A stretch of 64,000 bases of DNA from Herbiconiux sp. VKM Ac-1786 (GTDB lineage: Bacteria; Actinomycetota; Actinomycetes; Actinomycetales; Microbacteriaceae): positions 124,001 to 188,000 of the forward strand of contig NZ_JADKSG010000002.1 of assembly GCF_015350805.1 (NCBI RefSeq), written 5' to 3'. Position 1 is the stretch's first letter. Every line of letters starts with the position of its first letter. Below the pieces are notes generated by a model, which worked only from the letters and a program-made list of their open reading frames with translations, was not told the DNA's origin and ran no database searches. Below are positions 64 to 15,342 of this stretch, piece by piece. The translations under genes were made by a program, and so were the position numbers.

Positions 64-558
64 TCAATCGACACGAATCAATAATTCTTTGGGTTTCAGC
101 CCTTCCGTCGAGAGCGATGCTGCATGGTCAAGGACGCGCTCAATTCGACCGACCGCAGCCTCAATGCCGACGTGCTCCCAGATCCGGATTACGACCCAAC
201 CTTCGGCATTGAGCGCTGCGTTCGTAGCGTCATCCCGCCGAGCATTGTTTGTGAGCTTTGGGTTCCAGTAAGCCTGATTAACAGTGGGTCTCCGCCCATG
301 TGTTGGACACGAATGCCAATAGCACCCGTCAATAAAAATGGCTACTTTCCGCTTCGTGAAAACGACATCTGGGCGAGCGCGGCGCTGGGCAGTGTCGATT
401 CGGTAGTCTTTGCGAAATCGGTAGCCTCGCGCGTGTAAAGCTGACCGCAATTCAAGCTCAGGTCTGGTATCAACACGCTTGATCGCGCGCATGTTGCGCG
501 ATCGTCCTGCGGTGGTGGAGGCGACTCGCGTGTCGGAGGTATCAGTGATGATGTACAT
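64..558 (-). CDS. vsr: Very short patch repair (Vsr) endonuclease
   Basis: A 164-residue homologue of the Vsr endonuclease, which nicks beside T:G mismatches left when 5-methylcytosine deaminates. The N-terminal core NMRAIKRVDTRPE lies near residues 22-34, RPDVVF carries the expected catalytic Asp near residue 64, and GCYWHSCPTHG (residues 78-88) supplies the conserved Cys/His cluster. It is transcribed divergently from the cytosine methyltransferase at 638, with 79 bases between the starts; vsr next to a C5 methylase gene is the classical arrangement. Base composition is lower in GC than the rest of the window, which suggests that the pair travels with the island. The exact start is uncertain, since several in-frame codons precede the core. 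Confidence 0.9.
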   Translation of the reverse strand: MYIITDTSDTRVASTTAGRSRNMRAIKRVDTRPELELRSALHARGYRFRKDYRIDTAQRRARPDVVFTKRKVAIFIDGCYWHSCPTHGRRPTVNQAYWNPKLTNNARRDDATNAALNAEGWVVIRIWEHVGIEAAVGRIERVLDHAASLSTEGLKPKELLIRVD

Positions 559-637
559 CTATTCTCAAAGTACCAATCTCGCCTCGCACTGCAACGAGAG
601 TTCCGGCGGGTGAGCAAGTGATGGCCAGGAGTGCTGC

Positions 638-1894
638 ATGAAAACTGATCTGACGGTCGTCGAAATCTGCGCGGGAGCAGGAGGACAGGCACTCGGCCTG
701 CATAACGCTGGATTCAGCCATGCCTTAGCCGTCGAGCTCGACGCCTACGCGTGCCAGACGCTAAGGGACAACACTTCTTGGAAAGTTGCCGAGGGGGATG
801 TGGCTGACATCGATGTCTGGGATCCTTCCGACTACGCCGGAATTGACTTACTCGCGGGCGGCGTCCCGTGCCCGCCATTCTCAATTGCAGGGAAGCAGCT
901 AGGCTCCTCGGATGAGCGCGACCTTTTCGCCTGGGCTGTCGAGCAAGTAGGTGTGATTCGCCCCCGAGCACTCCTGCTCGAGAACGTTCGAGGCCTCGCG
1001 TCGAACCGCTTTGCTGGTTATCGACAGCGCATCCTCGATCGCCTCGCGGAGTTCGGATATGTCGCAGACTGGCGTCTGCTCCATTCGGCTGACTTTGGCG
1101 TTCCTCAGCTCCGGCCCCGCTTTGTTCTGGTCGCGATGAGGGAAGAGGATGCCGGATTTTTCCAATGGCCCGAGCCAAAGGGCCAAGTAGTCACCGTCGG
1201 CGCTGCGCTTCAAGACTTGATGGCTTCCAACGGGTGGAAGTACGCAGAAGACTGGGCTCGTCTCGCGGACGACATTGGTCCGACGCTGGTGGGTGGAAGC
1301 AAGAAGCACGGTGGCGCGGATCTTGGACCAACTAGGGCAAAAGCCGCCTGGGCCGCATTGGCGGTCGATGGCAAGGGCGTTGCAGACGAGGCTCCGGGAA
1401 CGGATTGGCCACACCCATCTGTGCGCATGCCAAAGCTCACGGTCCCAATGGTGGCTCGATTGCAGGGCTGGAGTGACGGGTACGAGTGGCAATTCGCTGG
1501 GCGAAAGACGGCACAGTATCGTCAGATCGGAAATGCTTTTCCACCACCTGTTGCGGAAGCGATTGGACGCTCAATTCGATCTGCACTTCTGCACGAAGGT
1601 CAAAAACACGATGTGCTGGGTCTGAGCCCCGCTGTGCACGACCCGATATATAAGGCACTCGCGAATACAACTGGTTACGTAACGCTCGAACATCTTCACA
1701 ATTTGCTAGACCCCTCAAATACTCAGGCGGTTATCGAGCGCAAACTCGCGGCTCTATCACACGATTTCGAGATTGATGTTCGTACAACTTCGTCGGGTAC
1801 CTCGTATCGCCTCGGAAGGTTCAAGGGCTTTACGGGGCAGCAAGATCACGAGCGCCACCTCTACATGGAGAGGCATCGCGGGCGCATCAGTTAA
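638..1894 (+). CDS. dcm: DNA (cytosine-5) methyltransferase
   Basis: A C5-cytosine methyltransferase that would transfer a methyl group from S-adenosylmethionine to cytosine in a specific DNA site. Motif I is EICAGAGG (residues 9-16), motif IV is GGVPCPPFS with the catalytic Cys near residue 78, motif VI is ENVRG near 115, motif VIII is QLRPR near 157, motif IX is LTVPMVARLQG and motif X is RQIGNAFPPPVAEAIG. After motif X there is a tail of about 100 residues, more than a standard member needs, which may be a small protein-specific domain. The gene is divergent from vsr and lies upstream of the DrmA/DrmB operon, where it could supply self-marking as the class II DISARM methylase does. The recognition site cannot be read from the sequence. 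Confidence 0.93.
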   Translation: MKTDLTVVEICAGAGGQALGLHNAGFSHALAVELDAYACQTLRDNTSWKVAEGDVADIDVWDPSDYAGIDLLAGGVPCPPFSIAGKQLGSSDERDLFAWAVEQVGVIRPRALLLENVRGLASNRFAGYRQRILDRLAEFGYVADWRLLHSADFGVPQLRPRFVLVAMREEDAGFFQWPEPKGQVVTVGAALQDLMASNGWKYAEDWARLADDIGPTLVGGSKKHGGADLGPTRAKAAWAALAVDGKGVADEAPGTDWPHPSVRMPKLTVPMVARLQGWSDGYEWQFAGRKTAQYRQIGNAFPPPVAEAIGRSIRSALLHEGQKHDVLGLSPAVHDPIYKALANTTGYVTLEHLHNLLDPSNTQAVIERKLAALSHDFEIDVRTTSSGTSYRLGRFKGFTGQQDHERHLYMERHRGRIS

Positions 1895-2341
1895 GCGTTC
1901 TGCTTAGGCGTCAACTCTCGAAGCCTGGTGCGTATGAATTCCATCCGACCTGTCGAGGCGGGCCAACTAACGCAGTCGTCTGGACTGTCAATCGTGTTTC
2001 ACCTCGGTTAGGCGCTCCGCGCCTCACTCTGGTGAGATCTGATCGGTGAGCGTCAAAGGCTGCAAAGCGTCTAGCGCGCGTTCGACGAGCTGTCGACCGC
2101 ACGACCACCAAATGTCGGCGGCAAACGCTATTCAGAGTTATCGAGACGGTGAGCTGAACTGGAATCGGAACGCAGCCCCTACTAACAACAATTTTCGCTA
2201 CCTCGGGAGCTCCCTAGGGCGGCTTCGAAATTGCAACCAAGTGCGGTGCGAGGCGAGGCTCAAACATGATTCGCAAAACGACACCCGTTGTGGAGCTAGT
2301 AATGAGGCGATAACCATCTGTATCGTCATCCTTGCGGGAGC
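1895..2341 (+). other. 447-base gap between the methylase and the DrmAB operon
   Basis: I see no convincing gene here. Two small adjacent inverted repeats occur: AGGCGC/GCGCCT (2010-2024, 3-base loop) and, directly next to it, CTCAC/GTGAG. They could be the end of the methylase transcript or a regulatory structure. The promoter of the operon starting at 2342 should lie in this gap, but I cannot place it confidently. A possible 99-codon frame on the + strand (2046-2345) has no protein-like features. Confidence 0.4.
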
Positions 2342-3382
2342 GTGATCGGGCTCGAAGGAAGAGATGGTCATGCTGCGGGTAGATCAACCGCATCGGAACA
2401 GGGGAAAGTCATCGCCGACTCAAGGGCAGAAGTTTTAGGGCAACCAGTAGAGCGCCTTCAAGGCACAGCGAGGCTGTCTCTGTCCCGCGATTCAAGTGGC
2501 CCGTATCTGTCCGCAAACTGGATTGGCGAGCTACTCGGACTAGGAGCGCGCGCTGCTAGATACACCGAGCTAGAGCCGGCTGAGCAGCTTGTGATTGCGC
2601 TCTCGTTGCCTGTGCGCGACTTCGCCGCTGTCCTCATCGGAAGTGGTTGGAACTTAACCTTTCCCAACTCGCCACTTGCCGAGCCCCTCAGCGTCTTCCG
2701 ATCGATGACGCCTGGTACCAAGGTGAGGATCGTCACGGATGACTTTGTTCTAGTCGACCGATTTTTATTACTCGATGAGTCAAGAAGTTCACCCAGAGTC
2801 AAACTCAGCGGGAAGGAATGGATAGTTAGCAAGATCCGGTCAGTTGCTGCGCTCGAGGTCGGCGATGAACCGACTGAACGAAAGCAGGTCGTCCCCGCAC
2901 CAGGTGCGCTTAGCAAGATGGCCCATCTCGATTCCCACTGGAGTGATCGTCTCTGCCATCCCAGTCGGAACCTAGCGATTGTGGGCGTTCAGAAGTGGCT
3001 GCGGGAAGAGGCAGACGTCCATGTTGCCCGCGAGGACGCGACAGCCGGCAACGAGGCTCTGACAAATCTGTTACAACCGGCACACACCCTTGCCGCAACC
3101 TGGTCCACTGAGTTGTTTTCCTCAGCCGGATTCGCAGAACAGCTCCCACTTCGAGACGAACTTCGCTGCGTGATCCTGGATGGCGCGGCCGCGATCCGCT
3201 ACCTGTGGGAGATCGAGGCTCCGATCATTTTCGCACTCGTTGATCGCAGCATCGCTGACGAGTCTGCGGCGGATCTAATCATGCAGATTCGTGGGCGGGG
3301 ACAACCAATGACGCTCGCCAGCGACCTCGAATGGATCCCTCCCGCCGGAGTAGAGGCATTCGCATTCAAGGTGCGCATGTGA
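2342..3382 (+). CDS. Uncharacterised protein, first gene of the DrmAB operon
   Basis: A 346-residue protein that I do not recognise. The GTG start at 2342 follows a GGGAG stretch, but the first 35 residues look poorly conserved and the start could be later. There is no transmembrane segment, no P-loop and no HKD phospholipase motif, so it is not a DrmC. A central stretch near residues 120-165 (TPGTKVRIVTDDF onward) is rich in alternating hydrophobic and charged residues, like a small beta-barrel. The C-terminal part (residues 280-346) is hydrophobic and ordered. Its stop overlaps the next start by four bases (GTGA), so the two are translationally coupled and may act together. By position it could stand in for the DrmE-type accessory protein of DISARM; that is only inference. 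Confidence 0.75.
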   Translation: MIGLEGRDGHAAGRSTASEQGKVIADSRAEVLGQPVERLQGTARLSLSRDSSGPYLSANWIGELLGLGARAARYTELEPAEQLVIALSLPVRDFAAVLIGSGWNLTFPNSPLAEPLSVFRSMTPGTKVRIVTDDFVLVDRFLLLDESRSSPRVKLSGKEWIVSKIRSVAALEVGDEPTERKQVVPAPGALSKMAHLDSHWSDRLCHPSRNLAIVGVQKWLREEADVHVAREDATAGNEALTNLLQPAHTLAATWSTELFSSAGFAEQLPLRDELRCVILDGAAAIRYLWEIEAPIIFALVDRSIADESAADLIMQIRGRGQPMTLASDLEWIPPAGVEAFAFKVRM

Positions 3383-4890
3383 AGGAAATCAGCGCAGTAA
3401 TTTCACGATATCAGACCACCAGTGACGTAATTGGTGGCGCTGTAGAGATATTCGCTGTCGGAGATCCCGCTTCGGCGCGCCTCAACATTGCGGTTCAGGG
3501 AGTGCATCAAGCCATTCGCGACGACGGGGCGGGACTCTGGGACGATGTGCTTGGAGCATCCCGCCTCCTTCGATGGCGGCTGGTAACTCAGCCACTCCCG
3601 GTGGAGATCAACTTGGCGCTTCGAGATGGCGTTGAATCCCTATTGGCGGAGGTTCGCAAGATCCGCAACGCGGTCGGGCGGGACGGCGGAAGGCTTCTAG
3701 ATGCGATTGAGATCGCCGCTGTATCGACACTTGAAGAAGACCCCGCAGCTGGCGAAATACTTCAGACTTCGGTGGACGAAGTTGGAGCCAATGATTGCGT
3801 GATCGTCGTCGCCGGTGCTGCGGCGGCTGCTGCATTCTCACGCTGGATTGGCCCCTCAGGGGTCGCGATTGAGACGGCTAGCGGGTTCACATCGTCAATC
3901 GCCACCCGTGAGCAGGCGTACGTTGTGGGTCCGCCACGATACTTTGTGCCTTCCGTTGTTACGTCGCCCTCGTCGAGGGCAGTCTGTTACATCACGCCGG
4001 CATGGTTCAAAGATCGGTCCATCCCGGTCTCTGCGGTTTCCGCTCATGCAGAAAATCCCATTCAGGTTCGAGTCCGAACTTTCGAGATCGGAAACGTGTT
4101 GCTTAGATCAGAAGCGTTGAACGCGGAGTTCGACGAACTGGAACCTCAACCCAACTGGGGCGATCCTGAACCCGGCCGGGTGCCAGCGATGTCGGAGGTA
4201 TTAGCCCGGCGCGTTGTCCTAAGTGGATCATTTGAAGTCTTCCTTGACGATGGCGATCGGATTCGGTCACTCTCCCCACAGCAGCCTGTAGGTGAACGCG
4301 TTGCGTATACCGATGTAAATGCCGTTAGACCGGGCTCATACCTTCTGCTCCGTGAAGGTAAGACCGAACGGCAAGCGATGTATGACGAGGCAATCTCGCT
4401 CTTGGGCGCTGATGGGGCGGCCGCGGAGGAGTCACAGAGAAACTGGAAAGCTGCCCTTCAGAGCCGCATGGATCGAATCGGAGTCGCTGAGGCGAGCGCT
4501 GAGCTGAGCAAGTTGGGTGTGACACGGTCGAGCCGGTGCGGAGTTTGGGTGGAGCAGACAGTTGTGCGTCCACAAAGCGATCACGATTTCGCAGTGTTGT
4601 TGGACTGGCTTGGCTCGCCCGTCGAATCGACGATCGCGATCGCGTCGACTATTCGCAAGCTCAGATCACAAGTGAGCGTCAATGTCCGACTCAATCTGGA
4701 AAAGGCAGCGGCCGATGCCGACCTCGGTGAGCTAGAGAGCAACGGGCACTTGAGTCTTGTCAATCGTCAATTGGGTTTTCGGGGGATCATAGCCACTCGT
4801 GTGCTACATGTTTCCCCGCGTCGAGAAGTGATTCCTCGAAGTGATGCCAGGGTATTGCGCACGAGTGGGGGCGTGAAGTGGCTCGAATGA
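3379..4890 (+). CDS. Uncharacterised protein, second gene of the DrmAB operon
   Basis: A 503-residue protein of unknown function. I chose the GTG at 3379 because it overlaps the upstream stop as GTGA, the pattern seen at other junctions of this operon. No nuclease, helicase or phospholipase motif is visible. An Ala-rich segment (VIVVAGAAAAAAFSRW, near residues 148-163) is followed by VVGPPRYFVPSVV and ITPAWFKDR, which look like a Rossmann-type or nucleotide-facing fold but prove nothing. The C-terminal 90 residues are predicted helical. Homology to DrmE of class II DISARM is a possibility that a profile search could settle. The stop overlaps the next gene as ATGA. Confidence 0.78.
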   Translation: MKEISAVISRYQTTSDVIGGAVEIFAVGDPASARLNIAVQGVHQAIRDDGAGLWDDVLGASRLLRWRLVTQPLPVEINLALRDGVESLLAEVRKIRNAVGRDGGRLLDAIEIAAVSTLEEDPAAGEILQTSVDEVGANDCVIVVAGAAAAAAFSRWIGPSGVAIETASGFTSSIATREQAYVVGPPRYFVPSVVTSPSSRAVCYITPAWFKDRSIPVSAVSAHAENPIQVRVRTFEIGNVLLRSEALNAEFDELEPQPNWGDPEPGRVPAMSEVLARRVVLSGSFEVFLDDGDRIRSLSPQQPVGERVAYTDVNAVRPGSYLLLREGKTERQAMYDEAISLLGADGAAAEESQRNWKAALQSRMDRIGVAEASAELSKLGVTRSSRCGVWVEQTVVRPQSDHDFAVLLDWLGSPVESTIAIASTIRKLRSQVSVNVRLNLEKAAADADLGELESNGHLSLVNRQLGFRGIIATRVLHVSPRREVIPRSDARVLRTSGGVKWLE

Positions 4891-6599
4891 TGCCAGGGTA
4901 TTGCCCATCCGAAGCTCCGCCCGGGGAGCGATCGATCTTCGAAGCGCTGAGTTCAAGTACAGAAACAGACGGCTGGGTCGTATTGCACTCCCTCGCAATC
5001 GCCTCGCACGTTCGTCAGGTCGAGGGTGAAGCGGACTTTGTCATCGTGGTTCCTGGAAAGGGAGTCGTCGTGATAGAAGTCAAATCACACCTGTCGGTTG
5101 AACGGCTTTTTGATGGCAGGTGGAAGCTCGGGAGCCAAGCCCCCACCGGTCGCGGGCCGTTCCAGCAATCCCGAGAGGCGATGCACAGTATCCGCAACTT
5201 CCTGGTGAGGTCGAAGGTCGACTTGAGGTCGACGCCGGTTCTGAGTGCGGTGTGGTTCACGCACGTGCGAGCGAGACAGATGCTCCCGCGCGATCCGGAG
5301 TGGAACAGTTGGCAGCTACTTGATTCAGAAGATCTCCGAAAGGGCGCGGCGGATGCTGTCGAACGCGTACTCGCGGGGGGCTTAGACCACTTGCGAGGAC
5401 GTCTCTCGACATTCAAGACGGATGACGTCGGGCCGAACGAAACCGAATCCGCGCAAATCACCAAATTGCTCAGACCTCGATTCGAAATGGCCCAAGTCCA
5501 AAGTGATGTCCGTCGTGCACGGAAGGTTCAATTGGCCACGCTAATTGATGAGCAATTCGACGCGCTTGACTCAATGGAGGAAAACAGGGCAGTACTGTTC
5601 ACGGGGCCGGCCGGCTCTGGGAAAACTCTCCTCGCCACGGAGGCAGCAAGAAGAGAGTCTGCGAAAGGTGGTCTTGGACTACTTGTATGTTTCAATAGGC
5701 TTTTGGCTCAGCACTTGGAATCCGAGGCTGGAGCAATTCCTGCGCTGAGAGTGACCAGCTTTCACCGCGAACTTCTGCGAATCGCGGATCTCGACGCTCC
5801 GCTGAATCCTGCGGCCAGCTTTTGGAGTGAGGAGCTCCCAGAACTGGCGATTGAGAAGCTGCTGAAGGACGACACGCGGCCGCAATACGAATATTTGATT
5901 CTCGACGAGAGCCAGGATCTAGCCCGGCCCGAATATCTGGATGTTCTCGACTTATTGGTACGGGGAGGGCTTAAGGAAGGGCGATGCCTTTTCTTCGGAG
6001 ATTTCATCAGTCAGTCGCTCTTCGATGCTGAGGACGGCAGACCAGAATTACGGCGACGTGTTCCCGGGCTGGTCGGATTTGCACTAGGCGCGAACTGCCG
6101 GAACACCCCTCGAATCGGAACCATAGTCAACACGTTCAGCAGACTGGAGCCGGGATATCGGCGCTTTCGTAGGCCGGATGATGGCATTAATCCCCAGTTC
6201 CACACCTACGGTCGGGGCGAAGATCAAGTAGACCAACTCGTACTCGCGATTTCTGAACTTCGTGATGACGGATTCGAGCTCGATGAAATCGTGATTCTTA
6301 GTCCGGTCAGAGCATCATCTGCGCTAAAGGCATCGAAGGATGCTCGTTTATCCAGCGTTCTGACATCAATCGACACGGCGGCGACTCCAAACCGAGGGCA
6401 CCTGCGGTACGGAACAATCCAGTCCTTTAAAGGACTAGAGGCTCCTGCCGTGGTCCTTACTGACCTAGAGACAACCGGGGCTTCATATTTCGACGCGCTC
6501 CTTTACGTCGGATTAACAAGAGCCACAGATCGGCTGGTCGCCTTGATCGAGAAGAATACGCTGAGATTGGCAATGAGGAGACATGATGTCCGGAATTAG
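4887..6599 (+). CDS. NERD nuclease-like domain fused to a superfamily 1 helicase
   Basis: A 570-residue fusion. The N-terminal NERD domain (about residues 10-130) carries GEADFVIVV followed by VVVIEVKSH, the Asp and Glu-x-Lys expected of a restriction-endonuclease-like fold. The UvrD/DUF2075-like helicase part has Walker A GPAGSGKTLLA near residue 239, Walker B YLILDESQDL near 338, the arginine-containing GANCRNTPR, the motif V region GTIQSFKGLEAPAVV and motif VI LLYVGLTRATDRL. It would use ATP to move on DNA and may cut it. The ATG at 4887 overlaps the upstream TGA; a GTG at 4878 is also possible. The end overlaps the DrmA-like gene by 17 bases, so it sits inside the operon and is probably a component of the same defence system. 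Confidence 0.85.
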   Translation: MMPGYCPSEAPPGERSIFEALSSSTETDGWVVLHSLAIASHVRQVEGEADFVIVVPGKGVVVIEVKSHLSVERLFDGRWKLGSQAPTGRGPFQQSREAMHSIRNFLVRSKVDLRSTPVLSAVWFTHVRARQMLPRDPEWNSWQLLDSEDLRKGAADAVERVLAGGLDHLRGRLSTFKTDDVGPNETESAQITKLLRPRFEMAQVQSDVRRARKVQLATLIDEQFDALDSMEENRAVLFTGPAGSGKTLLATEAARRESAKGGLGLLVCFNRLLAQHLESEAGAIPALRVTSFHRELLRIADLDAPLNPAASFWSEELPELAIEKLLKDDTRPQYEYLILDESQDLARPEYLDVLDLLVRGGLKEGRCLFFGDFISQSLFDAEDGRPELRRRVPGLVGFALGANCRNTPRIGTIVNTFSRLEPGYRRFRRPDDGINPQFHTYGRGEDQVDQLVLAISELRDDGFELDEIVILSPVRASSALKASKDARLSSVLTSIDTAATPNRGHLRYGTIQSFKGLEAPAVVLTDLETTGASYFDALLYVGLTRATDRLVALIEKNTLRLAMRRHDVRN

Positions 6600-9500
6600 A
6601 GCTCGAGCCACTATGGAATCGAGACTACGACGTGAGCTGTTCGGGCCTGATTGCGAGGAGGCGCCCCGTGGCCAACCGCTGGACTGTTCTAGGGGTTCAG
6701 TCCATTTTGATTCCCGAGAAGCAAGCTGGGGGCTTTGGCACGACGAAACCACCGGTCAGGAAATTCTGGCTGACGTGGATCCACTCAAGCGGTATGGCGT
6801 AGGAGTGCTGTTCAGCGGGTCATCGATGCAGGGTGCCACCTTGGTGCAGGACGCGCGGGCTTCGGGGGAAGATAACGCCGACCTGACCTGGGTCACGGGA
6901 CTTGCCACCGCGACCGAGAAACCGGTAGGCCCGATAGTCGAGGTGCGCGGAAAAGCTAGCCACAACGATTCAGATAGTGACGACTTTGACCTGTCTGATG
7001 CCAACACGTTTAAGCCGTCGGCCATGGCTATTTCGTTCAAGTGCCGCATTCCCGCCTCAGGGCGTCTGAGAATCACTGTCACCGGGGCTTACTACGACAA
7101 GATTTCGACACACATTGAAGGAGTTTCGAGAACGCTAAATTGGTGGGTGCGCCGACCATTCACTGTTGCCGGGGTTGCGGACGCTGAATCTCTGATCGAG
7201 GAAACCAACCGGCTAGTTGAATTGCCAATGGCATCTCCGGACTCGGATGACTTGCTGCGAATTCAACCATCCGTAAACGTATACAGCAGGCCCGTTCCAG
7301 GGGAGGACGACCTCGCCCTCCGGCTCGTTACCGTGGCAGTAGTCAACAGAGCACCCGGAAAGGGAGCCCAATCGGCTCTGTTTCAAATGGGCTTCGAGGT
7401 GCGGGGAGAGGGTGAAGCGACTATTGAGCCGTATCCCGAAGGAGAGCATTCAAGCCACGATGACGAGGAGCAATCAATCGACCTTCTGTATCGGAAAATG
7501 CGTACTTTCGCGATAGGCCACGGTTGCGCCGCTGACTGGAAGGCGGTCTCGCTAGATAGGGCGTCGTGGGTTCGGGGCGATCCGATGCCTGTTCACGAAG
7601 TAACAAGTCTTACGCCAAACGTCTACGCAACGAGAGCAGACGGAACACGCTTCGCCGTAACCGTAAGCATGGACGAGCTGGCAAACGATACCGCTCAGGC
7701 CAGAGATCAGATTGACCTGGTGCTCTCCCTTTACGAAAAGTGGATAAACGAACAAGACGAACAGATACCAACTTTGGCCGAGGGGCTCAAGTCGGCGGCT
7801 CGCCGTCATATAAGAGCCTGCCGTGTTGCACTTGCGCGGATGGACATTGGCCGACAACTCATCCGAACAAATCCAGTCGCGGCTCGCGCCTTCCAACTTG
7901 CGAATGAAGCGATGTTGTATCAGCAACTGCGGTCACGACTTGGCGTGCGAGCAATCGAGTTTCGAAAAAACGGGACCTACGAGGTCAATGGAGTGCAGCC
8001 ACTGGTTGAACCGATCACCGGCAAGGGGCAGTGGCGTCCTTTTCAGATTGCCTTCATTCTTGCGAGCCTCCCGGAGTTAGTCGATCCTTCCTTGCCCGAG
8101 CGGGACCTTGTCGACCTCATCTTCTTTCCCACGGGGGGCGGGAAGACCGAAGCTTATCTGGGGGCGTCAGCTATAAGTCTTATTGCTCGTCGCCTTAGGA
8201 ATCCGAATGATGTCGGCACTGACACGTTGATGCGATACACCCTTCGACTGTTGACGGCCCAGCAGTTCCTTCGGGCGGCCTCCCTTATTTGCGTGTTAGA
8301 AGATATTCGATTGCGCAACCCTGCGGAGCTTGGCGAGGGCAAGTTCGGGATCGGGATCTGGCTGGGTGGCGGGTCAACTCCAAACAATTGGTCTCAGGCC
8401 GTAGAAGCACTAGGTCAACTCAGGACGAATCAGCTTGCTCTCAACAAATTCCTCTTGCTGCGGTGTCCGTGGTGCGGAACTCAGATGGGTACCAAGCCGA
8501 AGGCGGGAGGGGGACAGAATGTGTGCGGCTACGAACAAGTCGGCAAGAAGGTCTTGTTCATCTGTCCCGATTCACGGTGCAGATTCGGCACGAGAAGAAA
8601 TCCTCTTCCCATCCATGTGGTCGACGAAGATATCTACGCCTCACGACCCTCTATCGTGATCGGGACAGTTGACAAGTTTGCAATGATGGCGTGGAGGCCC
8701 GAGGCTCGTTTCATATTCGGTTTGGGCCCTGATGGGAGCCGAGAGGTTTCACCGCCAGGCTTGATAATCCAGGACGAGCTTCATCTGATATCCGGACCTC
8801 TGGGGTCCATGGTGGGACTTTATGAAGCGATTGTCGATGAGCTCTGCACCGACCGGCGAGCCGAAATTCCTGTCGTGCCAAAAATCGTTGCTTCGACAGC
8901 GACGATCAGGAGATACAAGGAGCAAATCCTCGGTATTTTCGGGAGGGACCGAGTTAGCCTCTTCCCCCCACATGGCCTAGAACAAGGCCGATCCTTCTTC
9001 GCGGAGCCGGCAACCCTTGATGATGGCTCGCCGGAGCCGGGTCGCCGTTATTTAGGTGTCCACAGCGCGTCCCTAGGCTCCATGCAGACTGTTCAGGTGC
9101 GTGTTACAGCGGCCTTGCTGCAGGGCGGGTCTGCAGTTCCTGAGGCAGATAGAGATGGCTATTGGACCAATCTGATGTTCCTCAATAGCCTCCGCGAGCT
9201 CGGGAACACGGTCTCCCTCCTCGAGGCGGACGTACCCGACTACTTAACTGGCCTTCGTCGACGAGAGCAGCTGGACTCTCCCCGGTGGCCCCGAACGAAC
9301 ATGGAGTTAACAAGTCGGCGACGAAGCGATGAGATCCCCAAGGCTATTGAGCAACTGCAAATTGCTTATGGCGAGCCTGACTGCGTTGATATTTGCTTGG
9401 CCTCCAACATCATCGAAGTGGGTATAGACATCGACCGGTTGGCTCTCATGACGATTGTCGGCCAGCCAAAGACCACTGCCCAATATATTCAGGTCAGTGG

Positions 9501-10065
9501 ACGAGTGGGACGCAAGCCGGAAGTCAGCCCTGGGCTAGTTGTGACCATCTACGGAGCGGCCAAGCCCAGAGATCGAAGTCACTTCGAACGTTTCCGCACC
9601 TACCACCAGAGCCTCTACGCTCAGGTTGAACCAACGTCAGTGACGGCCTTCGCTACTCCTGTGCTTCGCCGCGCGATGCATGCAGCAGTGATCTCCCACA
9701 TGCGGCTAACGTCTCCCAACACTGGGCCTTATCCATTCCCGAGAGCCGAATTTGACGAGGCCATGAAGCTTCTCGAGACTCGCGCCTCACTCGTTGACTC
9801 CGCTGAACTTGGCGCTCTAGCGAAGATTCGGGCGGCTAAAGCCGCCGAATGGGACAGATGGGAGCGCACAGAGTGGTCCGCCAACGCCTTTGATGGAGAC
9901 CCCAAGCAAGGCCTGATGCGCTTCGCAGGGACCTTGCCAGACTTGGATAGCAAGGCAACTATCTGGGACGTTCCGACAAGCATGAGAAATGTGGATGCCG
10001 AGTGCAGACTGAAAATTTCCATGGCGTATAGCCGTGAAGATGCAGGAGAGGAGTCGGTGGAGTGA
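6583..10065 (+). CDS. drmA: DrmA-type DISARM helicase
   Basis: A 1160-residue superfamily 2 helicase matching the DISARM core protein DrmA. Motif I is FFPTGGGKTEAYLG near residue 515, the DExH box is IIQDELHLISGP near 728, the TAT motif is ASTATIRRY, and motifs V and VI are ASNIIEVGIDIDR and QVSGRVGRKP near 970. A four-Cys knuckle (CPWCG ... CP ... C) lies between motif I and the DELH box near residues 627-666, as in DrmA. The first 450 residues form a large non-motor region. The start ATG at 6583 has GAGGAG a few bases upstream. DrmA works with DrmB to block incoming phage DNA in known DISARM systems; that role here is inferred from family and neighbours. Confidence 0.88.
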   Translation: MMSGIRARATMESRLRRELFGPDCEEAPRGQPLDCSRGSVHFDSREASWGLWHDETTGQEILADVDPLKRYGVGVLFSGSSMQGATLVQDARASGEDNADLTWVTGLATATEKPVGPIVEVRGKASHNDSDSDDFDLSDANTFKPSAMAISFKCRIPASGRLRITVTGAYYDKISTHIEGVSRTLNWWVRRPFTVAGVADAESLIEETNRLVELPMASPDSDDLLRIQPSVNVYSRPVPGEDDLALRLVTVAVVNRAPGKGAQSALFQMGFEVRGEGEATIEPYPEGEHSSHDDEEQSIDLLYRKMRTFAIGHGCAADWKAVSLDRASWVRGDPMPVHEVTSLTPNVYATRADGTRFAVTVSMDELANDTAQARDQIDLVLSLYEKWINEQDEQIPTLAEGLKSAARRHIRACRVALARMDIGRQLIRTNPVAARAFQLANEAMLYQQLRSRLGVRAIEFRKNGTYEVNGVQPLVEPITGKGQWRPFQIAFILASLPELVDPSLPERDLVDLIFFPTGGGKTEAYLGASAISLIARRLRNPNDVGTDTLMRYTLRLLTAQQFLRAASLICVLEDIRLRNPAELGEGKFGIGIWLGGGSTPNNWSQAVEALGQLRTNQLALNKFLLLRCPWCGTQMGTKPKAGGGQNVCGYEQVGKKVLFICPDSRCRFGTRRNPLPIHVVDEDIYASRPSIVIGTVDKFAMMAWRPEARFIFGLGPDGSREVSPPGLIIQDELHLISGPLGSMVGLYEAIVDELCTDRRAEIPVVPKIVASTATIRRYKEQILGIFGRDRVSLFPPHGLEQGRSFFAEPATLDDGSPEPGRRYLGVHSASLGSMQTVQVRVTAALLQGGSAVPEADRDGYWTNLMFLNSLRELGNTVSLLEADVPDYLTGLRRREQLDSPRWPRTNMELTSRRRSDEIPKAIEQLQIAYGEPDCVDICLASNIIEVGIDIDRLALMTIVGQPKTTAQYIQVSGRVGRKPEVSPGLVVTIYGAAKPRDRSHFERFRTYHQSLYAQVEPTSVTAFATPVLRRAMHAAVISHMRLTSPNTGPYPFPRAEFDEAMKLLETRASLVDSAELGALAKIRAAKAAEWDRWERTEWSANAFDGDPKQGLMRFAGTLPDLDSKATIWDVPTSMRNVDAECRLKISMAYSREDAGEESVE

Positions 10066-11972
10066 GCACCGGTAACATGCGTCGCGCGCAACTAGTTGCG
10101 CCATTTGGTGTCGGCGCGATGAGCGTCTTAGTGGATGGCACGTCAGTGATCACGGCTGGTTTAGATCACTGGTACGACGTTCCGGCCCAGAGCTCGCTTC
10201 TGTTGGACGAGTATGTCGAGCACGACTGGAGACTTCAGGCGCGTCTCAGAGTCAAAGAGTTTCGCCTCCCTCCGGATAGTCGCTCTGGGGGAAGCGGAGG
10301 CGACAACCGGAATGTGAACCTAACAGTTCCGGTACTTCGGTTTCCGCGATGGAGCTTCTGCATGTACTGCAAGAGACTCAAGTTGAGCACGCTGACAATG
10401 CGAGAGCCTGAGCGCTGTGTCGACCCAAAGCACGCCGACTCAAAAACGAAGCCACGAATGTCCCAGGTCCCTTTCGTCGCAATATGTGTTCGCGGTCATC
10501 TGGAGGACTTTCCCTTTGACAAGTGGGTGCATAGATCTCACCAGCCCAAGTGTGGCGGCGTGCTTCGACTTGAGTCGCGGGGCGGCGGCGGACTGGAGGG
10601 TCAAGTTGTTGTATGCGACTCAACCACGGGCTGCGGTATGTCGCGACCTCTCCGAGGAATCACGTCCGCAAATATGGATGGCGACGACGAGCACACCTAC
10701 CTGTCAGACAATCTAGTTTCGAAGGACGATCCGTATCTCTGCGAGGGGGCAAGGCCATGGCTGGCCGAATCGACGGGTCTATGCGGTGAACCAATCAGGG
10801 GAGCCCTCCGAGCTGCTGGAAATGTCTACTTCCCGAAAGTGGAATCTTCGATTTACTTGCCCAAGCGCATTGGGGCTGTCACGTCGGAGATGCACGATCT
10901 GATGCGCCGGGGTGATGTCTCGCCAGTATTAGGGCTCATGCCGCTGATTTACCCCGACGGGCCTCAAGCCAACGAATTACGCCAGCACCTGCCAGTCGAG
11001 CTGTTTGCGCCAATATCAGATGCTGATCTGCTTGCTGCCTATATCGATTTGACCGGGATACCCAGTGACCAGAAAACCAGTAATGAGGCCAACACAGCTG
11101 GCGGCGAATTGCTCACATCAGATGACGAATGGCGTTTCCCAGAATGGCAACTTTTGCGGGAGACACCTCAGGACGATTACCTAACTGCATCCGACCCGGG
11201 CCTAGCTAAAGGTTTGGAGAGCGACTTCAGCAGAGTCAGAAGTGTCGAAGTGCTTCGAGAAACCCGGGCCCTAAGAGGTTTCACGCGTGTCCGAGATGAG
11301 ACTCTGAAGCTCAGCGTCGGCAAGGCGTTGCTGAGGAGGAAGGTTCTCCCGCCCGAACACGATTGGCTTCCTGCCTATGTCGTGAAGGGTGAAGGCATTT
11401 ATCTCGAGCTCGACGGGGAGCGACTGTCAGAATGGGAGTCCCGGGGTGACGTGCAACAACGTGCGCAGACGTTGACCGACCATTTCGGTCAAGTAGCTTC
11501 GCATCGCGGACTCGGCAGTCGGGTACTCAGCCCCCGGTTCGTAATGATCCATACGTTTGCTCATCTCCTGATCAACGAGCTTGTGTTCGCCTGCGGTTAT
11601 AGTTCCGCGTCCCTTCGAGAGCGTCTATACGTGTCAGACACTGAAGGTAAAGAAATGGCGGGGGTGTTGATCTACACCGCCGCCGGCGATTCGGAAGGAA
11701 CTATGGGCGGCCTTGTGCGAATGGCTCGCCCACTTGAGCTTGAGAGAACAGTCAATCAGGCGGTTGACGACGCTAGGTGGTGCTCTACAGACCCAGTTTG
11801 CATGGACGCCGGCGAGAAAGGTCAGGGCCCCGACTCCTGCAACCTAGCGGCATGTCACGGATGCACCCTGCTGCCCGAGACGAGTTGCGAGGAGTACAAC
11901 CGTTTTCTTGATAGGGGTTTGGTTATAGGTACATTCTCAAACCCAGCTTTAGGATTCTTTTCGACTACTTGA
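10062..11972 (+). CDS. drmB: DrmB-type DUF1998 protein
   Basis: A 636-residue partner of the preceding helicase. The N-terminus (RRAQLVAPFGVGAMSVL, then a GLDHW) is the typical DrmB opening, and the C-terminal DUF1998 region has IHTFAHLLINELVF near residue 492 followed by TAAGDSEGTMGGLV. A Cys cluster follows near residues 567-612 (CSTDPVC ... CNLAACHGCTLLPETSC), likely a metal site. The GTG start overlaps the DrmA stop as GTGA. In characterised DISARM, DrmA and DrmB form a complex that loads on DNA. No drmC-like phospholipase D gene follows: the next sequence is a broken helicase fragment on the other strand whose end overlaps this gene by 8 bases. Confidence 0.88.
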   Translation: MSTGNMRRAQLVAPFGVGAMSVLVDGTSVITAGLDHWYDVPAQSSLLLDEYVEHDWRLQARLRVKEFRLPPDSRSGGSGGDNRNVNLTVPVLRFPRWSFCMYCKRLKLSTLTMREPERCVDPKHADSKTKPRMSQVPFVAICVRGHLEDFPFDKWVHRSHQPKCGGVLRLESRGGGGLEGQVVVCDSTTGCGMSRPLRGITSANMDGDDEHTYLSDNLVSKDDPYLCEGARPWLAESTGLCGEPIRGALRAAGNVYFPKVESSIYLPKRIGAVTSEMHDLMRRGDVSPVLGLMPLIYPDGPQANELRQHLPVELFAPISDADLLAAYIDLTGIPSDQKTSNEANTAGGELLTSDDEWRFPEWQLLRETPQDDYLTASDPGLAKGLESDFSRVRSVEVLRETRALRGFTRVRDETLKLSVGKALLRRKVLPPEHDWLPAYVVKGEGIYLELDGERLSEWESRGDVQQRAQTLTDHFGQVASHRGLGSRVLSPRFVMIHTFAHLLINELVFACGYSSASLRERLYVSDTEGKEMAGVLIYTAAGDSEGTMGGLVRMARPLELERTVNQAVDDARWCSTDPVCMDAGEKGQGPDSCNLAACHGCTLLPETSCEEYNRFLDRGLVIGTFSNPALGFFSTT

Positions 11973-12808
11973 TACATGTTCGACTTTCGCTCTGGAGATC
12001 GGTAGCTTCCGAGTCGGTTAGCGCTTGCCCGAGGGTGAGGAGACGCAAGCCGTCAGGAGCCGCGGCGATCGCGAGTTCGAGGCGGTCCGCCACCGCCTCG
12101 TGGGCGTGCAGCCACCCCGGCAGCCAGACGCGCTCGACCGCCGGCCAGTGCATGAGGTTCTTCAGTACCTCGGTGGGCAGGCCGTCGCGGTCGGCGACCG
12201 TGCGGCGCGACTTCCAAGAGTCGCCGTCGAGGAGGACCGCCAGCACGGGGCGGTCGGGGACGTCTGCCGGTGCGTCGCTGAGGTCGACGCGGAAGTCGGA
12301 GAGGCCGACATCCGTTTTCACCGCGAGGCCGCGCATCCGGAGTTCTGCAGCGATGTCGTCTCGGTGGCGATCGACGATCGCGGTGCGCCGGGGGTCGGCT
12401 TCGAGGGCTTCAGTGCCGCTGGCCGCCATCTCGAGGTAGGACTTCAGGTGCTTCACTCCGACCGAGCTCGTCTGCTCGGCGCGGAGCTCCGCCGGGTCGA
12501 AGCTTGCGAAGAGCAGCACCTGACGGCGCGCTCGCGTGACCGCCACGTTGAGGCGGCGCTCGCCGCCGGCGCTCTGCAGGGGGCCGAAATTGAGCGGGAG
12601 GAAGCCCTTCTCGTTCACACTCAATGCGATCGAGAACAGGATCGCGTCGCGCTCGTCTCCCTGCACGTTCTCGAGGTTGTTCCACGAAGAGGCCCTCGCT
12701 GTCGGTGTCGAGGGCGTTCAGGATGCGCTCGTCACCGGTGTCGCGCAGCGGGTTCTCGATGAAGTCGCGCTGCTGGGCGTTGAACGTCACCACACCCAGC
12801 GACGGGCC
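11965..12808 (-). pseudogene. Fragment of a DUF4011-type helicase gene
   Basis: A truncated copy of an interior part of the 2030-residue helicase gene at 19988-26080, in the same orientation. It matches the region around 20.76-21.50 kb: QRDFIEN, GDERDAILFSIA, GERRLNVAVTRARRQVLLF and the nuclease-like segment DRHRDDIAAELRMRGLA. Both ends are missing; the match stops near 12808 and dissolves before 12040. Near 12680 an extra C (GTTCCACGAAG against TTCTTCACGAA) shifts the frame, so it cannot make an intact protein. Scattered substitutions show it is not a recent duplicate of the neighbour but a relic of a related gene. It marks the right edge of the DrmAB island. Confidence 0.85.
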
Positions 12809-12911
12809 TAAGCGTTCCTTGCGCGGCTGAAGCCTTTGCCTAGCGAGGAGTTGCCCTGCCATGGCGGCCTGTGGTCGACTGGGCAGCGTAGACGAGCGCC
12901 GGGGGGCGGCT

Positions 12912-13622
12912 GTGGAATCGAAACTTGCGATCAACTGGGTATGGGATGAATTGGTCGTCTTGACGGATGTACTTGAGCGCCGCGGTTGGCGCGAGATCAG
13001 AAGTACCTCCGAAGATGCGCTTGAGCTGTCGGGGTTGCTTGGCCGTGGACTTCTCCATCCGACCGTTGCCCTGCCCGACAACTTCCGCTCGGTGAATTCC
13101 ATTCAACTGAAGTCGGCGAATATTCGCACCACCAGGCCCTCCTACCTTGGCCGTAAGACCAACAACAACGTCCTGGATAAGAGAGTTGGTGATGCGTTTG
13201 ACCGCGATCTGATTCGAATGCGCAGTGAGGCCGCGGTCATCCGCGTTTTTCTCGAAGCGGGTGACTACGTAGAACAGGACCCGCTCGATGTGGACCGCGC
13301 TGCGGATGAGGGCAAGGTGTTGCGAACATTGAGTGTACGCCGCGAACGAGATCCCAAACTGCGCCAGCGCAAGATCGACGCGGCTCCTGGAGGTGTCATA
13401 TCGTGCGAGGTGTGCGGTTTTAGTTTCTCAGCGCGTTACGGGAACAGGGGTAAGGGGTACATCGAAGTTCACCACACGGTGCCACTTCATGTCTCCGGGC
13501 CGCGGCGCAACAGCCTCGATGACCTAGCTCTGCTTTGCGCGAACTGTCACCGCATGATCCACCGAGGTGGCTGGATCACGGTTGATGAACTAAGGGTGCT
13601 CGTGACCAAGGCTCTGAGTTAG
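12912..13622 (+). CDS. HNH endonuclease
   Basis: A protein of about 236 residues ending in a clear McrA-like HNH nuclease domain: SCEVCGFSF near residue 162, YIEVHHTVPLH near 183 and LDDLALLCANCHRMIHRGGW near 200, giving the zinc cysteines and the catalytic His pair. The N-terminal 150 residues carry no recognised domain, but RNNFRS-like and LGRKTNNNVLD segments suggest a DNA-recognition part. I prefer the GTG at 12912, behind a G-rich stretch, to the ATG at 12861, which would start at the edge of the helicase relic. It is probably a stand-alone restriction nuclease (perhaps of modified DNA) belonging to the island. Confidence 0.8.
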   Translation: MESKLAINWVWDELVVLTDVLERRGWREIRSTSEDALELSGLLGRGLLHPTVALPDNFRSVNSIQLKSANIRTTRPSYLGRKTNNNVLDKRVGDAFDRDLIRMRSEAAVIRVFLEAGDYVEQDPLDVDRAADEGKVLRTLSVRRERDPKLRQRKIDAAPGGVISCEVCGFSFSARYGNRGKGYIEVHHTVPLHVSGPRRNSLDDLALLCANCHRMIHRGGWITVDELRVLVTKALS

Positions 13623-13747
13623 CTGCGCCTGTTCGATTCGAGACTCTCACAGAGGCTGTCGCGTCGAGTCGGTGCTAGACGGATTCGGGATCGCTGGAGA
13701 TTACGGGGCGGCGCAGGTACAGGGAACGGTTGCGTCAGTTGCCGCGT

Positions 13748-14458
13748 TCATCTTGCCCAAGAAGCGATTCGCGAATTTCGCCCACGCAGGAACTTGAACA
13801 TCAATTCACGGTACGTCAGATATTCGTCGAGGGACTGCGGGATCGCTGGTGTTGTGAAGTCGTCGAAGGGAGCCCAGAACCGGACGGCCGAGTGGCCATC
13901 AGCGACAGCATCCTGCAAGAGGAAGAAGTCGACGTAGCCGCGGAAGCTCTCGAAGAGCGCGAAGAACTCCGCGTACCTGTTCAGCGTGACGTCGAGTGGA
14001 CTCGGCTGGCCCAGGTAGTGGCGGCGGATGCACTCCAGCGTCAGGTCGAATCGGTCGGAGATTCGCGGGTGCGTGCCGCGTGCCTGGTTGATCGTCTGCT
14101 TGCCGTCGACGCGATCGCCGGGAAAGACGATCATGCCGCCGATCGTGTACGCCTCGCTCATGGAGGCCTCGCGCTCTGCCGCGGATATCTGCGCGACGAT
14201 GCTCGTGGCTCGGGGGTGGGAGTTGAAGGTGCGCAGGATCGAGTCGCTGGCAAGCAGGAACTCACCCAGTGCCGACTGATGGTAGAGATAGCGACCGGGT
14301 TTGCTCGCATCGAGGTCGAATCTCGAGCCTGATGGCAGCGGCTTGCTCCAGAGCGCCTGGTGATACCGGCGAAGGGTTGGACTGTGCTTGTCAGGATCCC
14401 TGCCACGCGCGTCTACTCGCATGTCGAGCGTCACGTCGATGACTGGGCGCTCCATCAT
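13748..14458 (-). CDS. DUF6994-like protein
   Basis: A 236-residue protein. The arrangement FDLD near residue 43, then GRYLYHQSALGEFLLASDSI and later FALFESFRGYVDFFLLQD and FWAPFDDF, resembles the DUF6994 family, whose function is unknown. No signal peptide or membrane segment is seen. The ATG at 14458 (MMERPVIDV) is preferred; longer forms would run into the divergent promoter region shared with the gene at 14574. The family name is from memory and could be wrong. Confidence 0.7.
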   Translation of the reverse strand: MMERPVIDVTLDMRVDARGRDPDKHSPTLRRYHQALWSKPLPSGSRFDLDASKPGRYLYHQSALGEFLLASDSILRTFNSHPRATSIVAQISAAEREASMSEAYTIGGMIVFPGDRVDGKQTINQARGTHPRISDRFDLTLECIRRHYLGQPSPLDVTLNRYAEFFALFESFRGYVDFFLLQDAVADGHSAVRFWAPFDDFTTPAIPQSLDEYLTYRELMFKFLRGRNSRIASWAR

Positions 14459-14573
14459 GGACGCAATTCTACGGGTGCGGTGTGCGCCACATCCCGTCTT
14501 GCGGATATTCAGGAGACGACGGATCACTGTGTCGGCCGCTATCGTCTACGCAACGGCTGTGGGGGAGTGGTTA

Positions 14574-15284
14574 GTGAGTTCAAGCGGGAATCGGATTGTC
14601 ACTCTCAACGTGATGCACGGCGGTGGCGCGCGCGTTTCCGCGTTGATCCGGGCGTTGGAGGCGATTGAAGCTAACGTCCTCGTGCTCTCCGAGTTCCGCA
14701 CAGGACGATCGGGTGATTCACTGGCTGCGGGACTCGAGCGCCTTGGGTATAGCTGTGCGGCGCCGGATTCGCGACCGCGCGAGAACAGCGTATTGGTTGC
14801 GTCTCGAGACACGATCGAGACGTCGTCCACCCTGCACGAGAGCGCCACCGACGGCAGACACCTCCGCACCGTGCGAACCGCCGGCCTGACGATCTGCGGA
14901 GTGTACATGCCGCTGGGCGCCGCCAAGTTGCCCTACTGGGAGCTGGTGATTGACGCGGCGCAAGCATCCGCGGCGGACCTCTTCGTCGGTGACTTCAACA
15001 CGGGAACCCAGGACCTGGACCGCGATCCGCGCGGCGCGCCATTCGTTGGCGCCGATCGGATGCAGCTCATGACGGACACGGGTTTCGTTGATCTATGGCG
15101 ATCTGCTCACCCGGAAACGCGGGAGTACACATGGTTCAGCCGCGGCGCGAAGAACGGGTTTCGGCTCGATCAGGCGTTCGCCTCGCGCGCATTCACCGCG
15201 CGCGTCTCGGCCTGCTTCTACGACCAGAACCCGCGCACGTCGGGCATCACTGATCACGCCGCACTCGTCGTCGAGTTTGACTAG
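14574..15284 (+). CDS. Endonuclease/exonuclease/phosphatase-fold enzyme
   Basis: A 236-residue member of the endonuclease/exonuclease/phosphatase superfamily, which cuts phosphodiester or phosphomonoester bonds with a divalent metal. Visible are RIVTLNVMHGGG near the start (metal-binding Asn), LVLSEFRTG with the metal-binding Glu near residue 43, the active-site GDFNTG near 142, FRLDQAFAS and the terminal SGITDHAALVVEF with the catalytic Asp-His. I use the GTG at 14574, which follows GGGGGAG by a few bases; longer readings would add a basic, unlikely extension. The substrate is unknown: it may be a DNA-repair-type nuclease or a phosphatase. It is divergent from the gene ending at 13748. Confidence 0.82.
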   Translation: MSSSGNRIVTLNVMHGGGARVSALIRALEAIEANVLVLSEFRTGRSGDSLAAGLERLGYSCAAPDSRPRENSVLVASRDTIETSSTLHESATDGRHLRTVRTAGLTICGVYMPLGAAKLPYWELVIDAAQASAADLFVGDFNTGTQDLDRDPRGAPFVGADRMQLMTDTGFVDLWRSAHPETREYTWFSRGAKNGFRLDQAFASRAFTARVSACFYDQNPRTSGITDHAALVVEFD

Positions 15285-15330
15285 CGTTTGCGCTGTTCTG
15301 ACTGCGCTCGCGCGCATTCCAGGACTCTCG

Positions 15331-15336
15331 TAGATT
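15331..15336 (+). promoter_or_regulatory. -10 box of a leaderless promoter (GTPase)
   Basis: TAGATT stands 6 bases before the ATG at 15343 and no Shine-Dalgarno is present, so the transcript probably begins at the start codon. Confidence 0.55.
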
Positions 15337-15342
15337 GCACGT

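Follow-up and report, generated by a model that had tools for sequence, protein, structure and literature searches.

A predicted DISARM-derived operon of Herbiconiux with a NERD helicase and a DrmE probably encoded in two genes

We have analysed a stretch of 64,000 nucleotides from Herbiconiux sp. VKM Ac-1786 (GCF_015350805.1, contig NZ_JADKSG010000002.1, positions 124,001-188,000, forward strand), which we refer to as the window. Positions 2342-11972 of the window harbour five overlapping genes that likely constitute a defence operon descended from DISARM, coding for the N-terminal and C-terminal parts of DrmE (DrmE-N and DrmE-C), a superfamily 1 (SF1) helicase with a NERD domain, DrmA and DrmB. 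By analogy, an anti-phage function is predicted with high confidence. Judging from the sequences, the operon is probably a new variant of DISARM, and the NERD helicase probably supplies its nuclease activity. The gene content, the second gene as DrmE, the conserved gene order, the monophyly of the loci with a split DrmE and the lack of a DrmC match in the examined loci are direct observations. The five genes are:

2342..3382, plus strand: X, probable DrmE N-terminal half (hhalign to fused DrmE)
3379..4890, plus strand: Y, DrmE C-terminal half (family matches to NF038316 DrmE_fam, hhalign)
4887..6599, plus strand: N, NERD nuclease domain fused to a UvrD-type SF1 helicase (PF08378, PF13538)
6583..10065, plus strand: DrmA helicase (PADLOC, NCBIfam and structure 7s9v matches)
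10062..11972, plus strand: DrmB (DUF1998 / MrfA Zn-binding domain; NCBIfam DrmB_fam, PF09369)

All four junctions overlap: X/Y by a GTGA at 3379-3382, Y/N by an ATGA at 4887-4890, N/DrmA by 17 bases at 6583-6599, and DrmA/DrmB by a GTGA at 10062-10065. The three short overlaps and the 17-base one are exactly as given in the original prediction, which had been made from the sequence alone. The GTG start of X is the sole in-frame ATG, GTG or TTG between 2306 and 2520. DrmA and DrmB, also named in that prediction, were confirmed. The best PADLOC model for DrmA gave E 5e-201, the nearest solved structure is DrmA 7s9v (E 7e-137), and the motifs PTGGGKT and DELH can be read in the sequence; similarity to BrxH is weak (PADLOC, E 5e-4). 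DrmB scored 419 bits with NCBIfam DrmB_fam (cut-off 240) and matches the MrfA Zn-binding domain PF09369.

X and Y had been described as unrecognised. This holds for direct searches: at the thresholds applied, neither window protein had a match in PADLOC, Pfam, NCBIfam or PHROGs, and X and Y proteins scanned one at a time were matched by no PADLOC model. Comparison at the family level, however, identified Y firmly and X probably. In the Y family, 32 of 52 members match NF038316 DrmE_fam and 11 of 52 match DISARM_DrmE (E <= 0.01), window Y not being among them. In sixteen loci the Y frame is long, at 860-1159 amino acids (aa), and X was not found there. Two long (fused) Y relatives match NCBIfam DrmE_fam over nearly their full length (315 and 367 bits, cut-off 80), and the fused relative in locus L048 matches PF24957 DrmE_C (34.9 bits, cut-off 27). 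When the split Y sequences were aligned with the C-terminal part of the 16 fused DrmE, hhalign in global mode gave E 1.7e-55. Y likewise matched a second set, made up of seven DrmE proteins including a canonical one (E 1.7e-30 global, 2.6e-21 local), and a profile built from split Y alone finds the canonical DrmE of L172 (E 1e-7). Y is thus almost certainly the C-terminal half of DrmE, as far as profile comparison can tell.

The X family aligns along its length with the region of the 16 fused DrmE that lies just before Y (hhalign global mode, probability 96.7, E 4.6e-10). While this first comparison was global, the controls for X were run in local mode, in which X itself reached probability 89 and E 2.2e-6 over X 33-262. 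As controls in that mode, four other protein families were compared with X or Y (E 0.08-0.75), and 20 altered DrmE alignments, one reversed and 19 shuffled, with X alone (E 0.25-0.96); the best value for any X control was 0.17. Such alignments suggest that X is very probably the N-terminal half of DrmE. The original prediction, in which a NERD helicase and two unknown proteins replace the usual accessory genes, had named a DrmE homologue concealed in these two proteins as a finding that would refute it, and it has to be revised accordingly: the pair appears to be DrmE itself, firmly in the case of Y and very probably in that of X. A DrmC concealed in X or Y was rejected, since neither has a PADLOC or Pfam match. 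We also rejected as DrmE the genes of about 900 aa in L094 and L098, which are REase_III-like, and that of L102, which proved to be DrmD.

The original prediction had called for a survey of neighbourhoods with the same gene order. Our genome scan used two DrmA patterns and covered the best 80 of 111 relatives; the viral scan covered 17. Counting loci with X and Y by iterated profiles, including the window and three plasmid loci and after removal of one duplicate contig, we obtained 40 distinct split loci with the cassette X-Y-(NERD helicase)-DrmA-DrmB. Since X and Y recur with DrmA in 40 distinct loci, a chance association is excluded. Y of a Rhodococcus opacus plasmid is 38% identical to window Y over the whole length, and Y occurs on two Nostoc plasmids as well. 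In all three plasmid loci X precedes Y, and DrmA and DrmB follow in two; on Nostoc plasmid4 DrmA is present only in part, as the record ends there. A long Y is found in two Nostoc plasmid records. The search for Y in viral contigs yielded 24 pattern matches and no relative. The PADLOC DrmE model PDLC02635 had no match in 296 genomes of the phylum, where positive controls also remained unmatched, and one weak match among 193 genomes from the family to which G591 belongs. For the Rhodococcus X gene we set aside the annotated start (L004:11381) because the open frame begins at 11051 and the homology extends upstream.

The junction of X and Y is an exact 4-base overlap (ATGA, GTGA or TTGA) in 34 of 39 measurable loci, with a 1-base overlap in one locus and gaps of 2-3 bases in four. 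These counts take the Y start closest to the X stop, a choice that biases towards short overlaps, though not towards ones of exactly 4 bases. The recurrent overlap points to coupled translation of the two DrmE halves. In the fortieth locus (L006, Nostoc HK-01 plasmid1) a transposase gene at L006:10473-11414 splits X from Y in an otherwise conserved cassette.

In a DrmA tree of 98 rows, 38 split rows and four contig-edge rows form one clade of 42 rows with a support of 100 by the Shimodaira-Hasegawa-like approximate likelihood ratio test (SH-aLRT), and the fused-DrmE rows, most of which have a NERD helicase, branch next to it. A larger clade of 70 rows (support 99) contains all rows that have a DrmE-family gene, apart from the DrmC-bearing L172 and L177. 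All seven DrmC rows, including the canonical L172, fall outside this clade. These trees are quick ones with SH-aLRT support only and a midpoint root, and L177 sits on a very long branch. According to the record labels, about 12 phyla are represented among the split rows. From the tree topology, one fission of DrmE followed by spread through transfer would be the simplest reading, the root being only a midpoint. The reference locus L172 was obtained by running NCBIfam DISARM_DrmE against 398 genomes, which gave seven matches, one of them above the cut-off (970 bits). L172 has the order DrmE-DrmA-DrmB-DrmC, accompanied by a Vsr-like gene and by DrmMII in convergent orientation (PADLOC bits: DrmE 677, DrmA 924, DrmB 285, DrmC 183, DrmMII 535). 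The loci L174-L176 have the order fused DrmE-NERD helicase-DrmA-DrmB-C5 methylase and no DrmC match; the methylase of L174 is a DrmMII (614 bits).

The absence of DrmC from the island, as originally proposed, was borne out. PADLOC DrmC had no match in the ten scanned open reading frames (ORFs) of 64-14527, and PLDc_2 was found in the own genome only in two frames (549 and 730 aa), both on another contig. A DrmC profile of our own matched none of the 40 split and none of the 16 fused-DrmE loci; it did match five loci of the set, all without X or Y, plus L172 and L177. None of the 91 ORFs that follow DrmB had the motif HxKxxxx[DE]. When 129 flanking proteins were scanned in bulk with PADLOC, 17 C5 methylases were among the matches listed (best 25 of 149 families), a listing that would be compatible with a rare DrmC. 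Two facts limit the negative result: the DrmC profile was built from four seeds, and six of the 40 split loci lack DrmB or have less than 1 kb after it, so that the absence of DrmC is not assured in those six. As a separate observation, many of the loci L061-L084 have DrmAB pairs without a DrmE-family or DrmC match in which an SF1-type helicase precedes DrmA, and in several a further SF1-type helicase follows DrmB. In L061:7818-16114 the first helicase has a NERD domain; in L063:8056-17133 neither helicase has one by Pfam.

The gene between Y and DrmA is the NERD/SF1 helicase that had been recognised from the sequence (PF08378 41.3 bits, cut-off 22.1; PF13538 39 bits, cut-off 27.4), and it matches PADLOC RTasNERD-Hel with E 5e-30. 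In 47 helicases counted at >= 400 bits, with residues numbered from 4887, E64, K66 and Q94 are kept in all 47, D50 in 46, and E14 and E48 in 45; the Walker A motif is kept in 47 of 47. The D-ExK pattern of the NERD domain is presumably the PD-(D/E)xK nuclease motif. There are 49 loci with a NERD helicase of at least 400 bits before DrmA, of which 46 belong to the set and three are L174-L176. DrmC was matched in none of these 49 and such a NERD helicase in none of the seven DrmC loci; of the 46, 42 include DrmB and no less than 1 kb of sequence past it. In the 40 split cassettes the NERD helicase is intact in 28, broken into three fragments in L025 and missing in 11, seven of which are cyanobacterial. 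It is also present in 11 of the 16 fused-DrmE loci, preceding DrmE in L083. On the basis of these sequence features we lean towards the NERD helicase as the effector nuclease. Two points count against it: with 11 of 40 cassettes lacking the gene and L025 broken, the NERD helicase is not obligatory, and since the mutual exclusion of NERD and DrmC spans few branches of the tree, the pattern may reflect one event.

A less favoured rival explanation is that the NERD helicase forms an independent defence module that only travels along, while DrmE and DrmAB block replication or recruit host nucleases without it. According to PMC9142583, DrmAB may block replication or recruit other nucleases. Besides the 11 cassettes without the gene, the wider distribution of the family is in line with this alternative. 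Among 396 genomes of the phylum, 28 have a relative of the NERD helicase at E <= 1e-20; four of these, the own genome included, have Y and DrmA adjoining and one has DrmB adjoining, whereas the remaining 23 have neither Y/DrmA nor DrmB within flanks of about 1.5 kb or less. On the other hand, the helicase gene overlaps its neighbours on both sides in the window, it is kept intact or present in the majority of split and fused loci, and the operon-linked helicases cluster. In a tree of 101 NERD helicases, 31 of the 32 rows of one clade (support 100) are DrmA-adjoining or labelled split: 29 split-labelled rows, L112 (Y and DrmA adjoining) and L023 (contig edge, DrmA adjoining). The lone unlinked row is L111, which has a long branch. 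L110 was counted as split by choice, its X falling outside the sequence stretch. Distribution and tree together describe a wider module, yet the operon's own branch is almost wholly linked to DrmAB. The original idea of a DISARM subtype with NERD as nuclease thus remains plausible in view of the conserved motif and the 28 intact genes, but it does not extend to the 11 cassettes without the helicase. The other finding named at the outset as refuting, NERD helicases unrelated to DrmAB, applies in part, since more distant members of the family stand apart from DrmAB in 23 of 28 genomes within the short flanks covered.

We prefer to regard the five genes as one unit with the NERD helicase as candidate nuclease, and it was necessary to ask whether the C5 methylase upstream belongs to this unit, as originally assumed. 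The region before the operon is composed as follows:

64..558, minus strand: Vsr mismatch endonuclease, outside the five-gene operon (PF03852 71 bits, cut-off 27; PADLOC Vsr E 2e-16)
638..1894, plus strand: C5 cytosine methyltransferase, flanking NaeI-type restriction-modification (R-M) set (PF00145 209 bits)
1895..2341: gap of 447 bases from the end of the methylase to the start of the operon

In PADLOC the methylase scores 693 bits with DruM2 (PDLC00032), 591 with MTase_II and 114 with the best DrmMII, and in view of these values and of its NaeI neighbour we rejected it as DrmMII. A gene for a NaeI-family restriction endonuclease (PF09126 351 bits, cut-off 25) lies on the same contig at G000:C2:122563-123519 (L159:16563-17519), separated from the window start by 481 bases; with the methylase at C2:124638-125891, the genes for NaeI, Vsr and methylase are all within 3.4 kb. 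As judged from sequence similarity and position, they are a NaeI-type R-M set apart from the operon. The window methylase is 65% identical to one near NaeI on R. opacus pROB02. A 94% identical copy stands next to genes for NaeI and Vsr in G288, a genome from the window's own genus; Y was not found in the G288 genome, nor any match to X, Y, N, DrmA or DrmB in 17 kb around that methylase. Among 299 genomes of the family the methylase occurs in 19 (E <= 1e-90), whereas Y occurs in the own genome and as one weak match with in-frame stops. In five of five family regions (L160-L164) the methylase is accompanied by an HNH gene like that near the methylase in R. opacus, and in only one of them by NaeI; with NaeI not found in the four others, the methylase is not tied to a single partner. 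In L004, L011 and L017, too, a NaeI gene is located close to the cassette.

A complete DISARM-type system, in which the adjacent C5 methylase provides the self/non-self mark and forms one R-M-like unit with the five genes, is rather unlikely. In 24 of the 40 split loci, some of which have short flanks, a C5 methylase is encoded in the interval from -12 to +14 kb around DrmA. It adjoins DrmB in L029 and L036, a Vsr gene and a 68% identical methylase precede X in L033 as in the window, and the fused-DrmE relative L174 has its true DrmMII directly after DrmB. Against such a unit stand the 447-base gap, the preference for DruM2 and MTase_II models over DrmMII, the NaeI gene close by, and the same R-M genes in G288 as well as the methylase in far more family genomes than Y. 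C5 methylation is frequently associated with split cassettes, but there is no shared operon in the window; self DNA is possibly, but not necessarily, marked for the five genes by the NaeI R-M set. In L036:15405-18100, the C5 methylase, an HhH-GPD glycosylase and a NO VEIN C-terminal protein are consecutive after DrmB; in L038 and L086 this place is taken by a methylase and two similarly sized genes.

The view of X as DrmE-N has its own weak points: no DrmE model matches window X or Y directly, X went undetected against the seven DrmE proteins that Y had matched (E 0.53-0.66), against four of them (0.11-0.37) and against canonical DrmE alone (E 0.24), and no Foldseek match of either model reached E <= 1e-3. 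Because the second DrmE set was matched by Y and not by X, we consider the identity of Y firm and that of X probable. It is improbable, however, that X is an unrelated subunit and that only Y derives from a DrmE whose N-terminal part was lost, as this would account for the failure of X to detect canonical DrmE but neither for its colinear match to fused DrmE with clean local-mode controls nor for the fact that X never occurs without Y in the 104-locus set and was not found in the 16 fused loci. AlphaFold2 (AF2) models of X and Y have predicted local distance difference test scores (pLDDT) of 89 and 90. Their Foldseek matches in the PDB are weak and include, for X, first-lobe ATPases of superfamily 2 (ISWI, probability 0.69) and, for Y, helicase lobes (nsp13 0.94, Dicer 0.84). 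Profile searches against PDB sequences gave best E values of 0.54 (X) and 0.067 (Y). The Walker A motif is absent from all 40 X proteins; its match in three of 57 Y frames was taken as chance. A degenerate helicase cut between its lobes would be a fitting, if hypothetical, description of DrmE.

Type II DISARM is defined in PADLOC, as given in PMC9252829, by DrmA, DrmB, DrmC, DrmE and DrmMII. The window shares with the type II locus L172 homologues of DrmE-C, DrmA and DrmB in the same order. It differs in that DrmC is missing, DrmE is in two genes, a NERD helicase lies between DrmE and DrmA, and the methylase is not DrmMII and lies outside the operon. The hallmarks of class II DISARM that had been claimed are therefore present in part: DrmA, DrmB and, at the family level, the C-terminal half of DrmE were found, DrmC and DrmMII were not, and X matches the N-terminal half of fused DrmE and not that of the canonical protein. 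Also to be held against the assignment, window DrmA reaches 821 bits with NCBIfam DISARM_DrmAS and stays below its cut-off of 950. As DrmC and DrmMII are missing, the operon is a variant and strictly no member of type II DISARM; by analogy it probably works like DISARM. Also close are the operons with fused DrmE, NERD helicase, DrmA and DrmB (L048, L088, L174-L176 and others), which share the order and the lack of a DrmC match but have DrmE as one gene and, in L174-L176, a C5 methylase after DrmB. Type I DISARM (Serratia DrmAB, 7s9v/7s9w) has a DrmA homologue (E 7e-137) and DrmB in common with the window. Its PADLOC rule (PMC9252829), however, needs DrmC, DrmD and DrmMI and excludes DrmE; the window carries DrmE-C, and no DrmD or DrmMI is among the matches listed for the ten ORFs of 64-14527 (for the methylase, the best 25 of 62 families).

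TALON, as described in PMC12458937, likewise combines a YprA-family helicase and a NERD nuclease in one operon, whereas the window has separate DrmA and DrmB, plus DrmE. Since the five operon proteins have no TPR-CSD or TATA-binding protein domain by Pfam, membership in TALON was rejected, and so was membership in ARMADA. PMC12458937 deals with the YprA family, and NERD occurs twice in it, with TALON and in a reference. NERD-SF1 helicases of other loci (PADLOC RTasNERD-Hel; C3a187 NERD+UvrD, E 2e-17) have the same domain architecture, but that of the window sits between DrmE-C and DrmA. The literature that was accessible, which mostly excludes subscription papers, describes neither a split DrmE nor a NERD helicase in DISARM.

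With the published Serratia DrmAB as a model, DrmAB would load on foreign DNA ends or single-stranded DNA and translocate. The two DrmE halves might assemble into one non-catalytic RecA-like adaptor, in keeping with the missing Walker A of X and the weak fold matches. Degradation of the DNA would then fall to the NERD helicase, acting both as a second motor and as the nuclease; this is suggested by its conserved active site and by its occurrence in loci that lack DrmC. DrmC itself is reported as dispensable in DISARM in PMC9142583. More tentatively, a major branch of DISARM could have swapped the phospholipase D (PLD) nuclease DrmC for NERD, and in the ancestor of the split clade DrmE could have been cut between its RecA-like lobes into coupled subunits; the two-part pseudo-helicase might gate DrmAB and the NERD nuclease, and a minimal form, mostly cyanobacterial, might do without both nucleases. 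DrmE as two separable subunits and NERD in place of DrmC would allow direct tests of the role of DrmE and of the finishing nuclease. A rule demanding DrmC, DrmE and DrmMII for type II DISARM would miss these operons, and X and Y had no match in PADLOC single-protein scans.

The G+C content is 56-58% in the first 12 kb of the window and 67-75% from 20 kb on; therefore, the stretch at the window start was probably acquired. Upstream of the window, L159:10680-16168 (G000:C2) contains a frame for a Schlafen-g3 helicase that also shows a GIY-YIG match below the threshold, and after it an AAA ATPase and a subtilase; with these genes the island reaches beyond the window. On the other side, the gene at 11965-12666 (minus strand), which shares its terminal 8 bases with the end of DrmB, encodes only a C-terminal fragment of 233 aa that matches positions 1143-1343 of 1550 of PADLOC PDC-S37 and has an MTES_1575 REase domain. 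It is followed by an HNH endonuclease gene at 12861-13622 (plus strand) whose product weakly resembles methyl-directed restriction enzymes of Type IV (PADLOC mREase_IV, E 3e-8), and by consecutive genes at 13748-16515 for a DUF6994, an exonuclease/endonuclease/phosphatase and a double-GTPase (DO-GTPase2) protein, which are possibly further defence genes.

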